Source: Actinomycetes bacterium (lineage in GTDB: Bacteria; Planctomycetota; Phycisphaerae; JAACET01). From it: DNA of 37,740 nucleotides. The position numbers and the translations under genes were made by a program. The notes beneath the pieces are model-generated. The model made no database searches. It had not been told where the DNA came from and worked only from the letters and a program-made list of their open reading frames with translations. Where the stretch lies: positions 1 through 37,740 of the forward strand of contig JAUXAG010000022.1 of the NCBI GenBank assembly GCA_030614915.1. The letters are read 5' to 3'. Positions 8,298 through 37,740 of this stretch are shown here, piece by piece. Every line of letters starts with the position of its first letter. The stretch's first letter is position 1.

Positions 8298-8431
8298 GAG
8301 CCCACCTCCTCAGAAGCTTCTAATAGATACAGCGGCTCACTGGCCCGCCCAGTAAACGCAACCACGGCTATGCAAATACATTTCATCATAAAACCTGCAA
8401 CAATCGCTTGGGGGTTACTCACGATAAGCAT
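8294..8431 (-). CDS. Unlisted small ORF (45 aa), translationally coupled between SDR and MDR genes
   Basis: An ATG at 8431 lies 3 bases after the stop of the upstream SDR gene, with GGAG eight bases before it inside the last SDR codons. The frame runs 45 codons and stops in an ATGA overlap with the MDR start at 8297. The product starts MLIVSNPQAIVAG and has a hydrophobic centre (IVAGFMMKCICIAVVAF) and an acidic tail ending EASEEVGS. The exact fit between two genes, with a good ribosome site at each end, argues for translation. Against it: the product matches nothing I know, and remnants of other genes occur in this cluster, so it might be leftover sequence. Confidence 0.35.
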   Translation of the reverse strand: MLIVSNPQAIVAGFMMKCICIAVVAFTGRASEPLYLLEASEEVGS

Positions 8432-8434
8432 TAG

Positions 8435-9247
8435 TCAAACTCCAGAAGAGGCAGTAAACCCGCCGTCAACGGGAATGATGGCCCCGGTGACAAAACTTGC
8501 CAAGTCTGAAACCAGCCACAGTGCCGCTCCGACCAGTTCATCCGGCCGGCCATATCGACCGGCGGGAACGCTACGGAGAATGTCTTTGCCTCTTTCAGTG
8601 ACTTCGCCTGAGCTCTCATCAATTAGAAGAAATCTGTTCTGCTCGGTTAAAACAAAACCCGGAGCAATGGCGTTAACGCGAATACTGGGTGAATATTCCT
8701 TCGCCATATGAACAGCCAGCCATTGGGTGAAGCTATTAGTCGCTGCTTTGCCGTCGGAATATGAAACGGATCTGGTAAGGGGTCGGATTCCGGCAATGGA
8801 CGAGACATTCAATATCACTCCGGAACCTTTCTCGGCAAAGATTCGTCCCACAGCCTGCGACGTTATGACGACACTGCCGTAATTGAGTCTCATAGTCGAA
8901 TCCATTTCTTCGGATTCAATATCAAAGAAACTCAATTCCTGCGAAGTTGTGGTCGTCTTGCGGCTACCACCGGCGCCGTTGACAAGGATATCAACGGTTC
9001 CGTACTCGGACACCGTCTTATCAAGAGCAAGAGCAACACTGGCCTTGTCAGTCGCATCACATTCCACCGCTATTGCTTTGCCCTTCTTTGAGATAATCTC
9101 GTCCGTCCTTTTGGCCGCTGCGGCAAAGGAGATATCCCATAGAGCCGTCTTCACCCCTGCCACGGCAAATGCCTGGGCTATTTCACCACAGATCGCTCCG
9201 CCTGCTCCGGTGACGACTGCAACCTTGTCCGCAAGATTAAAATTCAT
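8435..9247 (-). CDS. SDR family oxidoreductase, D-mannonate oxidoreductase (UxuB/YjmF)-like
   Basis: This 270-residue SDR begins MNFNLADKVAVVTG and has the altered glycine motif TGAGGAICG, VNGAGG in place of NNAG, and SYSDGKAA with the catalytic Tyr and Lys. The block FVLTEQNRFLL followed by GEVTERGKDIL is characteristic, in my recollection, of the YjmF/UxuB-type SDR that reduces fructuronate to mannonate. The C-terminus VDGGFTASSGV is complete. I used the ATG at 9247 rather than the longer frame to 9316, because that extension is the antisense-phase shadow of the truncated aminopeptidase piece upstream. No strong ribosome site precedes 9247, so coupling to that upstream reading frame (gap 13 bases) may matter. 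Role: sugar-acid interconversion (inference). Confidence 0.82.
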   Translation of the reverse strand: MNFNLADKVAVVTGAGGAICGEIAQAFAVAGVKTALWDISFAAAAKRTDEIISKKGKAIAVECDATDKASVALALDKTVSEYGTVDILVNGAGGSRKTTTTSQELSFFDIESEEMDSTMRLNYGSVVITSQAVGRIFAEKGSGVILNVSSIAGIRPLTRSVSYSDGKAATNSFTQWLAVHMAKEYSPSIRVNAIAPGFVLTEQNRFLLIDESSGEVTERGKDILRSVPAGRYGRPDELVGAALWLVSDLASFVTGAIIPVDGGFTASSGV

Positions 9248-9260
9248 GCTGTTGCTACTC

Positions 9261-9449
9261 TCAGCCTTCGGCCGCAACCACTGCGGCCGGGCCATCTTTG
9301 GCAGTAAAAACCGCATAGGAAAACCCGACCATCGGCCAGGTGCCGAAGCTCATGACAATATTTTCCGGCAGTCGGAGGATTATCGCATCGAGCTTTGCCT
9401 GCCTGATCGCAAGCCTCAGCCGTTTGATTCTTTCCTTGTCTGCACGCAT
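9261..9449 (-). pseudogene. Truncated Xaa-Pro aminopeptidase/creatinase (M24) N-terminal fragment
   Basis: This 62-codon frame starts at an ATG with GGAG seven bases upstream and reads as the first strands of a creatinase N-terminal domain: RIKRLRLAIRQAKLDAIIL, then LPENIVMSFGTW, then AVFTAKDGPAAVVAAEG, where normal M24 proteins continue for another 300 residues. It ends in TGA 13 bases before the SDR start. The M24 catalytic domain is absent from the rest of the window. The simplest reading is that a deletion removed the remainder of the gene and left the SDR immediately behind it. The preserved ribosome site means the short peptide may still be translated and help load the SDR gene. Confidence 0.6.
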
Positions 9450-9482
9450 ATTAATTCTCCTGATCATTACCCGACAAAAGTT

Positions 9483-10289
9483 TTATTTGCCTTCAAGAAC
9501 TTTGCTCTTGTAGCTTTCCTTGCTCACGAGCAGGCTGGTCATGCCTCCATCAGCAAAGAGATTGGCGCCAGTAATATAGGACGCCTTATCGGAGGCTAGG
9601 AACGCCGCGGCTTGACCCATTTCCCGGCAGGTACCGACACGTGCCATGGGAATATTCGACCACCAGTGTTTGTGACAGGCATCCATATCTTCTGCAACGT
9701 CTTGGATATCCTGCCATATTTGCGTATCAATCAGGCCGGGGCTGAGGCAGTTAAAGCGGATATTTCGCGATGCGAATTCGACTGCAAGAGACTTGGTCAG
9801 CCCAACCATGCCCCACTTGGCCGCGTCGTACGGAGCCGCGCCAGGTAAGCATGCCCCAGTATGCACCGTCGCGATATTGACAACATTTCCGCTACCCTGT
9901 TTGAGGAATGGATCAATACAGGCCCTGGTGCAAAGAAACGTGCCACGCAGATCGACACCAATAACGCGATCCCATTCCTCGGTGGTGAGTTCTTCGAAGG
10001 CTTTTACGAAATTCACACCGGCGTTATTGATCAGGGCATCGATTCGGCCATATTTGTCCAGGGCGGTTTTGACCATCGCGTCGACCTGGTCGCTCTGGGA
10101 CACATCACATCGCACAAAAACCGCCTCCCCGCCCTTCTCGCGTATGGAGGCAGCTACGGCCTGCCCCTGCTTCTCACGACGTGCGACACAAACGACCTTA
10201 GCACCCTCTTCGGCGAAAACCTCTACGATACCTATCCCTATACCGCTGCTGGCTCCGGTAACTATCGTGACTTTGTCTTTAAGAAGCAT
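9483..10289 (-). CDS. SDR family NAD(P)-dependent oxidoreductase
   Basis: This 268-residue classical SDR has the TGASSGIG cofactor motif near residues 12-19, INNAG near 86-90, a serine/threonine-containing NIATVHTG block and YDAAK as the active-site Tyr-x-x-x-Lys. The C-terminal FADGG is present. The ATG at 10289 (MLLKDKVTIVTG) was chosen over the longer frame to 10325 because AAAGGA stands about nine bases upstream and the Rossmann strand then starts at the usual place. It belongs to the - strand cluster between an MDR gene and the truncated aminopeptidase. A role as dehydrogenase of a keto-deoxy sugar acid or polyol is plausible from context only. Confidence 0.9.
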   Translation of the reverse strand: MLLKDKVTIVTGASSGIGIGIVEVFAEEGAKVVCVARREKQGQAVAASIREKGGEAVFVRCDVSQSDQVDAMVKTALDKYGRIDALINNAGVNFVKAFEELTTEEWDRVIGVDLRGTFLCTRACIDPFLKQGSGNVVNIATVHTGACLPGAAPYDAAKWGMVGLTKSLAVEFASRNIRFNCLSPGLIDTQIWQDIQDVAEDMDACHKHWWSNIPMARVGTCREMGQAAAFLASDKASYITGANLFADGGMTSLLVSKESYKSKVLEGK

Positions 10290-10347
10290 GTATAAGTTCC
10301 TTTTTTCAATAGTTGAAGCTATCAAATAGTCCTATTTAATCAGGCCA

Positions 10348-11394
10348 TTATGCACCTATCTGAAACACCGGCCGGACTGCCTCCAGTTTTTCCAACTTAT
10401 CAAAGGCATCTTTCCACTGCTCCAATTCAAAGCGATGAGTAATCAAAGGGAGTGTTTGAACTTTTTTATCTGCCAAAAGGTCCAAGGCCTTTTCCCAATC
10501 TGAGTTAATCGAGCTGTAGCAGAAAAACAGTGAAACCGCCTTCGATACCATTTGATCCCAAGCAATGGGAAGTTTCGTTTTTCCAGTGATGCCGGATATC
10601 GCCATTCGGCCGTTCTTCCTTAGCATCTCCAAACCGCAAGCAATGGCAGATGTGCTGCCCGAAGCCTCCACGACAACGTCAGCCCCCGCGTGAGCAGTTA
10701 AATCATCAATCCTTCTCTGCAACCCCTCTTTTCCGACTTTTTCAATATTCAGCGTCTCCAGGCCGAGTTCGTCAGCACACGCAAATCGAACCGCCTCATC
10801 GCGAGTTGTCCCGACAAGCACTATATTTTTCGCATTTTCTGCTCGTGCGACCTGTGCTGCCAAAATTCCTATGGCACCGGGGCCGAAAACTACGACAGTG
10901 TCACCTTGCTCTATTGAACACCTGTGAGAAACAGCGTGAGTTGCAACCGCCAGTGGCTCCATCAGAGACGCTTCTTCAAACGAGATATTATCAGGAATTC
11001 GATGAATCAGGTTCGCCGGGAGTTTGACATATTCGGCAAAACATCCATCGGAATGAATCCCCATTGCCTTTTTCTGGGGGCACATATTGGGATATCCACG
11101 CTTGCATATGGCACAGGCACCACAGGCAAATGGATTGTTTGCCGATACGACCCGATCACCTTTTCTGAAAGCTTCCACACCAGTACCGATACTTTCAATC
11201 ACGCCGGAAAATTCATGGCCGAGTATTATGGGCGGTGAATTGGCAAAACGATCGTAGTAGATATGGACATCCGTACCACAAACGCAGGCTACTTGAACCC
11301 TTATCAAAACTTCGCCTTGACCAGGCGATGGTGTCGGAACATGCTGAACCCGTACCTTACCAACTCCCCCAGCTGTTTTCATCAAAGCTTTCAT
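10348..11394 (-). CDS. Zinc-dependent medium-chain dehydrogenase
   Basis: The 348-residue product shows catalytic zinc ligands Cys39 (VCGTD) and His60-Glu61 (ILGHEFSG), the structural-zinc loop CGACAICKRGYPNMC with four cysteines, and the NAD motif GPGAIG. The ATG at 11394 (MKALMKTAGG) has AAGGA five to six bases upstream; the frame stays open to 11448 but that part overlaps the non-coding end of the larA-like remnant. It follows that remnant by 22 bases on the - strand. The family includes sorbitol, L-threonine and galactitol dehydrogenases. Together with the other two MDR enzymes it suggests stepwise oxidation of a sugar alcohol or acid. Confidence 0.9.
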   Translation of the reverse strand: MKALMKTAGGVGKVRVQHVPTPSPGQGEVLIRVQVACVCGTDVHIYYDRFANSPPIILGHEFSGVIESIGTGVEAFRKGDRVVSANNPFACGACAICKRGYPNMCPQKKAMGIHSDGCFAEYVKLPANLIHRIPDNISFEEASLMEPLAVATHAVSHRCSIEQGDTVVVFGPGAIGILAAQVARAENAKNIVLVGTTRDEAVRFACADELGLETLNIEKVGKEGLQRRIDDLTAHAGADVVVEASGSTSAIACGLEMLRKNGRMAISGITGKTKLPIAWDQMVSKAVSLFFCYSSINSDWEKALDLLADKKVQTLPLITHRFELEQWKDAFDKLEKLEAVRPVFQIGA

Positions 11395-36952: not shown

Positions 36953-37229
36953 GGTCCGGATTTCGATGGATCGGGCACGGGCAAATAACCGGCTGGATAG
37001 ATTATCGTCAATAATGCAGGCTAATAAACATAATAATTATCTCAGGTCCACCACGCGGTGGTCTCTGCTATTTGGGTTTTTAATGAGTAATCAAGTGTAT
37101 TACCAGACTAAAGAGAAGTCTCGTCTGAGAAACGATTAAAAACAAATCATAAGGTTCCGGACAGGTCAAAAAATTTACTCTTAAATTTGTTTTTTTGCTA
37201 AAGACATACTAAGTTTCTTTACGGATGTT
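36953..37229. other. Leader region between arfB and the riboswitch, no gene
   Basis: No coding sequence is supported here. A small hairpin ACCAC-gcg-GTGGT lies near 37050-37062. An AT-rich inverted repeat, AAATTTA-ctct-TAAATTT, at 37171-37188 is followed by seven T residues and may act as a terminator or merely as AT-rich DNA. I could not assign a convincing promoter for the tad gene. Confidence 0.4.
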
Positions 37230-37318
37230 TCAGGTAGGCTTGCAGGGCAAACCAGCCGCGAGGCTGGGACGCAAAACGTTGAATCTGTGGCCGAGCCGCA
37301 GATTGTCGCGCTGCCTCG
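37230..37318 (+). ncRNA. Cyclic-di-GMP-I (GEMM) riboswitch aptamer
   Basis: The conserved GEMM core is present in order: GCAGGGCAAACC, then a stem AGCC-GCGA-GGCT closed by a GNRA tetraloop, then GGGACGCAAA (37242-37275). A second stem AATCTGTGG/CCGCAGATT follows (37282-37303). A closing helix AGGTAG (37232-37237) with CTGCCT (37311-37316) frames the aptamer. Such RNAs bind c-di-GMP and control genes of motility, pili and adhesion; the downstream gene here is a Tad pilus protein. The part between the GCAAA motif and the second stem is shorter than in the Vibrio Vc2 model, so it could be a variant of the class or a c-AMP-GMP type. Confidence 0.82.
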
Positions 37319-37331
37319 AGCGGCATTTTGT

Positions 37332-37363
37332 CGTTCCTGACGCAAGTATTGTGGAAAGGAACG
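37332..37363 (+). promoter_or_regulatory. Ribosome-site-masking hairpin (riboswitch expression platform)
   Basis: CGTTCCT (37332-37338) is fully complementary to AGGAACG (37357-37363), and the second arm contains the AGGA ribosome-binding site of the ATG at 37368. Folding this hairpin would hide the site. It follows the GEMM aptamer by 13 bases, so the switch probably acts on translation. Confidence 0.6.
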
Positions 37364-37367
37364 CATT

Positions 37368-37740
37368 ATGCCTCAGCCCACTTTTTTCCATCCTCACCTT
37401 TCTATCGATGGTCATCAACGCAAGGGAGCGGTCTTAGTTATGGTCGCTGTTTTGCTCATAGTTCTGCTGGGTTGCGTGGCCCTGGCCGTGGATATCGGCT
37501 ATCTCTACGTAGTTCGTACCGAACTCCAGCGGACCGCTGATGCCGCCGCCATGGCCGGAGTCCAAGCCCTTGCTCGTGGCGCCGACAATCCCCTTGGTAT
37601 TTACGCTCCATCTGTCGAAACCGTCCACACCGACGTCAAGTTATACGCCGGTTTGAACACCGTGGTCGGCGAAGGCATTGCAATCGACCCACAGGCCGAC
37701 GTAATGATCGGATATTTGGCCAACCCCCACGACCTCAGTA
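37368..37740 (+). CDS. Tad pilus assembly protein (TadE/TadG-like), 3' end outside window
   Basis: The frame opens at the ATG at 37368 and is still open at the last base, 124 codons visible. The product starts MPQPTFFHPHL, then RKGAVLVMVAVLLIVLLGC as a single transmembrane helix at about residues 21-41, followed by DIGYLYVVRTELQRTADAAA and GVQALARG, the diagnostic PF13400 'putative Flp pilus-assembly TadE/G-like' N-terminus. These proteins are pseudopilin-like parts of the Tad secretion/pilus system, used for surface attachment. The upstream leader carries the c-di-GMP riboswitch and a hairpin over AGGA at 37357-37360. Whether further tad genes follow lies outside the window. Confidence 0.88.
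   Translation, partial: MPQPTFFHPHLSIDGHQRKGAVLVMVAVLLIVLLGCVALAVDIGYLYVVRTELQRTADAAAMAGVQALARGADNPLGIYAPSVETVHTDVKLYAGLNTVVGEGIAIDPQADVMIGYLANPHDLS

Follow-up and report, generated by a model that had tools for sequence, protein, structure and literature searches.

Does the leader in front of the truncated Tad-family gene at the end of this contig carry a c-di-GMP riboswitch, and, if so, how would it act on that gene? An earlier note on this DNA had reported GEMM hallmarks around a GNRA-capped stem and had proposed a scan with Rfam models. In the window (the whole stretch analysed, 37,740 nucleotides), cmscan with Rfam 15 identified a full-length c-di-GMP-I match (RF01051, model positions 1–87 of 87) at 37236–37318 on the plus strand. 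It scored 50.3 bits, where the gathering score is 35 bits, with E = 4.4e-7 for the window and 7.2e-9 when the whole 2.56-Mb genome was searched; the sole other Rfam match in the window was a tRNA. The motifs GGGCAAACC and GGGACGCAAA are located at 37245–37253 and 37266–37275, and between them lies a 6-bp stem (37252–37257/37262–37267) with the GNRA loop GCGA at 37258–37261. The family core, GGCAAA...GACGCAAA, was present together with covarying P2 and P3. The elements of the aptamer are as follows.

37236–37318 (+): c-di-GMP-I (GEMM-I) aptamer, from the cmscan score of 50.3 bits and covariation in 18 leaders
37238–37242 (+): putative 5′ strand of P1, GCUUG, with partner 37317–37321, placed by its canonical position relative to the core
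37246 (+): position 20 (Vc2 numbering), a G, the ligand-selectivity position, placed by the Rfam alignment register
37247–37248 (+): core pairs G21–C46 and C22–G45, formed with 37271–37272, invariant in 18/18 leaders
37252–37267 (+): P2 stem and GCGA loop, with two-sided changes in 5/6 pairs and 100% of cells paired
37266–37272 (+): core strand GGGACGC, by sequence complementary in relatives to GCGUCCC before the start codon
37273 (+): presumed equivalent of A47, the ligand-stacking adenine, by the Rfam register
37275–37312 (+): P3, from folding and the leader alignment
37275–37278/37309–37312 (+): basal part of P3, with an A37276–C37311 mismatch
37282–37291/37295–37304 (+): apical 10-bp helix of P3, with a CGA loop

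The leader alignment comprised the two copies of this genome and 16 from relatives. Standard pairs were formed by 97.4% of the cells and 10 pairs had changed on both sides, a result matched in pairing or two-sided changes by none of 500 shuffles; registers slid by 1–3 columns reached at most 45%. The hallmarks and the capped stem were thus confirmed in their coordinates, by a score above the cut-off and by covariation, and 37236–37318 is almost certainly a c-di-GMP-I riboswitch. The canonical P1 of this copy was weak, with a probability below 0.1 in the free ensemble.

The linker between the core and the second stem, which had been regarded as unusual, turned out to be the normal P3 of the clade, a continuous helix without a UAA-type receptor. 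The window P3 lacks the 11-nt tetraloop receptor and has a helical CU:AG in its place, together with the loop GCGA, while nearly all other TadG-type copies have a CC:GG helix there. The position of the basal mismatch is an A–U pair in the second copy of this genome. In a simple pattern test on the best 30 phylum copies, UAA or a receptor-like sequence was found in 19 of 21 copies with a GAAA loop, and was lacking in seven of nine with another GNRA loop. Loop and receptor site may therefore co-vary (GCGA with CU:AG, other loops with CC:GG), which, with a single CU:AG case, is suggestive at best.

The gene behind the leader is the following.

37368–37740 (+): orphan TadG-like gene, truncated at the contig end after 124 codons, identified by PF13400 and paralogue identity

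Contig C16 is identical with the window, and the reading frame therefore runs off its end. Its product matched PF13400 (TadE/G-like) at 45.2 bits (cut-off 22.3) and was 56–57% identical to paralogues on contig C21 and in the genus-mate G002. The contig stops at residue 124, and the C-terminal Tad_C was found in 21 of 23 aligned relatives. Upstream of the leader the window contains no tad genes, and none of tadA/B/C, rcpA/C or flp is adjacent. A tad operon (Flp pilin, TadE, RcpC, secretin, TadA-like ATPase and T2SSF) is located on contig C14, where the whole-genome search with RF01051 identified no riboswitch. The target is thus a Tad-family gene, as had been proposed, but an orphan TadG-like paralogue outside the tad operon.

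In G002 the gene order is fdhD-like, two TadG-like genes, further ORFs, and then gltX-like and glnS-like tRNA-synthetase genes, the latter two named by eye. In the present genome fdhD (TIGR00129) lies on C16, separated from the leader by other genes, and C21 (137728) ends within a TadG-like gene, beyond which come two others of this type and then the tRNA-synthetase-like pair. This synteny suggests that an array of TadG-like paralogues broke the assembly at C16/C21; by synteny rather than assembly, the two contigs are most likely adjacent, and the array would comprise four or more such genes. No hidden riboswitch was found before the C21 paralogues or in the examined stretches of G002 and the other genus-mate, G001, with E up to 5. 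The riboswitch was absent from both genus-mates, whose assemblies are 83% and 89% complete, including from the leader of the same-position TadG gene of G002; hence it is not essential to the locus. Directly upstream of the riboswitch, the stretch 37140–37235 has 30% G+C against 54% for the window and is likely the promoter region; it contained no significant sigma-70 match.

The genome contains two RF01051 copies above the cut-off. The second, at C2:64269, scored 58.7 bits and precedes a different gene.

L014:8269–8349: second riboswitch of this genome, before the gene at 8412–11066 for a DUF4347/cadherin protein

In this leader a 15-bp hairpin closes the ribosome-binding site (z = −4.9). A small ORF back to back with the riboswitch resembled a Flp pilin by eye and matched no family. 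The DUF4347/cadherin protein carries the motif LEPLEERMLLSG near its start, and we take this motif, together with DUF1559 in a same-phylum genome, to suggest Planctomycetota. The earlier assignment to a probable planctomycete is plausible, although a genus-mate contig (L059, G001:C228) is labelled 'Actinomycetes bacterium isolate CSMAG_1421'. The gene content looks planctomycete-like, and the label is possibly wrong.

We also examined the distribution of the riboswitch in relatives. RF01051 was present in 43 of 397 genomes of the class and 132 of 392 of the phylum, both sets being samples that partly overlap. Copies in the class were mainly located before genes for TadG-like proteins, PilM or GspG-like pseudopilins. 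PF13400 was identified in 22 of 23 aligned TadG-like proteins, three of these 23 being paralogues without a riboswitch, and PilM_2 in 15/15 PilM-type targets; one pseudopilin was assigned by Pfam scan and the rest by the signature FTLVEILIV. The association with TadG-like genes spans at least four families of the class (f1, f3, f14 and f19), and in G064, G238, G165 and G396, where TadG-type leaders occur in tandem, every such leader carries a riboswitch of its own. The same leader, which the earlier note expected before tad loci of related genomes, thus does recur before TadG-like genes, but not before full tad loci. No description of this association was found in a search of the open-access literature.

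Elsewhere in the phylum, the riboswitch preceded sigma-70 factors in 8 of the 30 best loci (L121, L129, L132, L133, L137, L140, L144 and L145), and all three of these factors that were scanned with NCBIfam passed the FliA/WhiG model; control of a flagellar sigma factor by c-di-GMP would constitute a finding in its own right. Several genomes of the phylum, G637 (C1), G555 (C3), G600 (C1) and G580 among others, contain at least 10 c-di-GMP-I copies each. Some of these copies are paired, with at most a few hundred bases between the two, and may be tandem riboswitches.

In the minimum-energy folds of several TadG-type leaders of relatives, the core strand GGGACGC paired with a GCGUCCC that touches the AUG. 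At least six of the seven core–start pairs were possible in 15 of 27 TadG/adhesin-type leaders versus 0 of 26 riboswitch-less TadG starts of the same clade (Fisher 4e-6; per-genome Mann–Whitney 4e-4), a significance that is inflated by shared ancestry. Pairs were counted in a single register, selected once the folds had been seen, and the position of some starts was set by hand. The 27 leaders include the DUF4347 leader, and three of them open short frames only. The mean number of pairs decreased from 5.1 to 3.7 when the register was shifted by one. In the 5.3 Mb of G396, GGCGTCCCATG occurs seven times, and four of these occurrences are found at the riboswitches, of which this genome has four. 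In G191 the core strand reads GGGGCGC and its partner GCGCC, which is compatible with a compensating change. When the aptamer was enforced, the predicted accessibility of the start codon rose in six leaders (0.15 to 0.63, 0.23 to 0.70, 0.33 to 0.62, 0.15 to 0.47, 0.28 to 0.66 and 0.29 to 0.60) and changed little in many others. Against general start sites the pairing signal was weaker (combined p 3e-4). Core–start pairing was also tried for the PilM and pseudopilin leaders and was not enriched there (combined p 0.19 and 1.0).

The pairing in relatives leads us to predict a translational switch turned ON by c-di-GMP. Without ligand, the core strand would pair with GCGUCCC next to the AUG; with ligand bound, the core would be locked in the aptamer and the start site freed. 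We put at an even bet the full reading, a direct core-to-start platform from which c-di-GMP would release translation without a separate hairpin, with one copy for each tandem TadG paralogue and, at G238:C95:2682, an A20 copy beside a G20 one. Such a compact platform, visible in the sequence of relatives, could account for translational control by a class I aptamer, and it is the more novel part of this work than the window riboswitch.

The start region of the window copy has a different arrangement.

37310–37324 (+): terminator-like hairpin GCUGC-CUCGA-GCGGC followed by AUUUUGU, a weak candidate at chance level (−5.6 kcal/mol)
37320–37376 (+): hairpin sequestering the ribosome-binding site and start codon, from folding against shuffles
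37357–37360 (+): Shine–Dalgarno AGGA, from the sequence

The hairpin at 37320–37376 is formed by CGUUCCU (37332–37338) with AGGAACG (37357–37363) and GGCAU (37322–37326) with AUGCC (37368–37372). Its folding energy was −25.8 kcal/mol (z = −5.4), reached by none of 200 shuffles. Two-dimensional folding left the Shine–Dalgarno closed with and without the aptamer, so that no switching step is visible in this copy. Enforcing the aptamer cost 4–8 kcal/mol relative to the unconstrained fold, a figure that excludes the energy of ligand binding and of tertiary contacts. Direct core–start pairing was rejected for the window, where 4/7 pairs can form.

We estimate a probability of about 0.85 that a functional c-di-GMP riboswitch controls the TadG-like gene. 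Binding of c-di-GMP would organise P1, J2/3 and P3 and thereby change access to a ribosome-binding site that the hairpin would otherwise keep shut. By analogy with relatives and from c-di-GMP biology, we slightly favour translational control in which high c-di-GMP raises the target; the opposite direction is somewhat unlikely, and a leader that acts in neither direction or does not respond is quite unlikely.

The opposite direction can be drawn as a concrete exchange, in which the anti-Shine–Dalgarno CGUUCC (37332–37337) pairs either with the core GGGACG (37266–37271) or with the Shine–Dalgarno strand GGAACG, and c-di-GMP, by locking the core, would make the anti-Shine–Dalgarno close the site. 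Core and anti-Shine–Dalgarno could form six pairs, one of them G–U, an aptamer with canonical P1 can coexist with the hairpin, and c-di-GMP OFF switches such as Cd1 exist (PMC9262584). The fold that joins core and anti-Shine–Dalgarno lies, however, about 13 kcal/mol above the free ensemble, and attachment biology and the relatives point to ON, which makes this exchange doubtful.

Control at transcription would keep the ON direction. Without ligand, P1 and P3 would give up their 3′ strands to the terminator at 37310–37324 with its AUUUUGU, and c-di-GMP would prevent this by stabilising P1, in the manner of the Geobacter pilM riboswitch, a terminator-based transcriptional ON switch (PMC9262584). 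The hairpin indeed overlaps both 3′ strands and is therefore mutually exclusive with them, but it has only 5 bp at −5.6 kcal/mol and a short U tract, and its probability in the free ensemble was below 0.01. Moreover, the TadG-type leaders of relatives that were inspected have no matching U-run, and terminator-like matches in the leader region were near chance (2 found, 0.9 expected), for which reason the terminator platform was rejected. We consider transcriptional control unlikely.

It is less likely still that the aptamer is a decaying remnant with weak or no binding and that a static hairpin alone sets translation. Both genus-mates lack the riboswitch, the base of P3 contains the A37276–C37311 mismatch, and no coupling between aptamer and hairpin is visible; against this, the core positions and P2 pairs are all intact and the apical helix of P3 runs through its 10 bp without interruption.

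For the ligand, the earlier note had left the choice between c-di-GMP and c-AMP-GMP open. The ligand-facing residue of the cGAMP riboswitch is A14, and the change G20A in GEMM-I gives cGAMP binding (PMC6274999). Position 20 was placed at 37246 by the Rfam register, the numbers being matched through the G20/A14 pair of that study. The residue at 37246 is G, not the A that marks GEMM-Ib (cGAMP), and because of this G we predict that the ligand is very probably c-di-GMP, so that the choice now leans clearly one way. The genome carries five GGDEF matches. Although cGAMP-preferring GEMM-I variants exist, one of them before the pilus gene pilM (PMC9262584; see also PMC8835794), sensing of cGAMP (3′,3′-c-AMP-GMP) in place of c-di-GMP is very unlikely here, given G at the position where the cGAMP class has A (PMC6274999). 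In G238:C95, one copy (L063:2682–2760) has A at position 20, and a G20 copy is located at 959–1037 in the same TadG array. By sequence, the A20 copy is a candidate cGAMP sensor beside a c-di-GMP sensor; if true, the two neighbours would let adjacent paralogues answer two dinucleotides.

Taken together, these results connect RNA-based sensing of c-di-GMP with orphan TadG-like surface proteins, which are often encoded in tandem, and the predicted targets fit a shift from free-living to attached life. In C. difficile, c-di-GMP raises the type IV pilus genes via a riboswitch before their operon (cited in PMC11656802). That riboswitch has a class II aptamer, and its target is the main pilus operon, whereas here it is orphan TadG genes. 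Bc2 of Bacillus thuringiensis is a c-di-GMP riboswitch that controls a surface adhesion gene, the collagen adhesion protein cap, in another host group (PMC4933901). The Geobacter pilM GEMM-Ib riboswitch shares with the window copy its aptamer architecture, a type IV filament gene and a possible terminator exclusive with P1, but it has A at position 20 and a working terminator, in contrast to G20 and the ribosome-binding-site hairpin here (PMC9262584). With c-di-GMP-I (GEMM-I, RF01051) itself, the window copy shares the full-length match, the GNRA loop of P2, the pairs G21–C46 and C22–G45, the 3′ end GCUGCC and G20; it differs in having, instead of the 11-nt receptor, a continuous P3 with CU:AG, where the clade's other GNRA loops face CC:GG.
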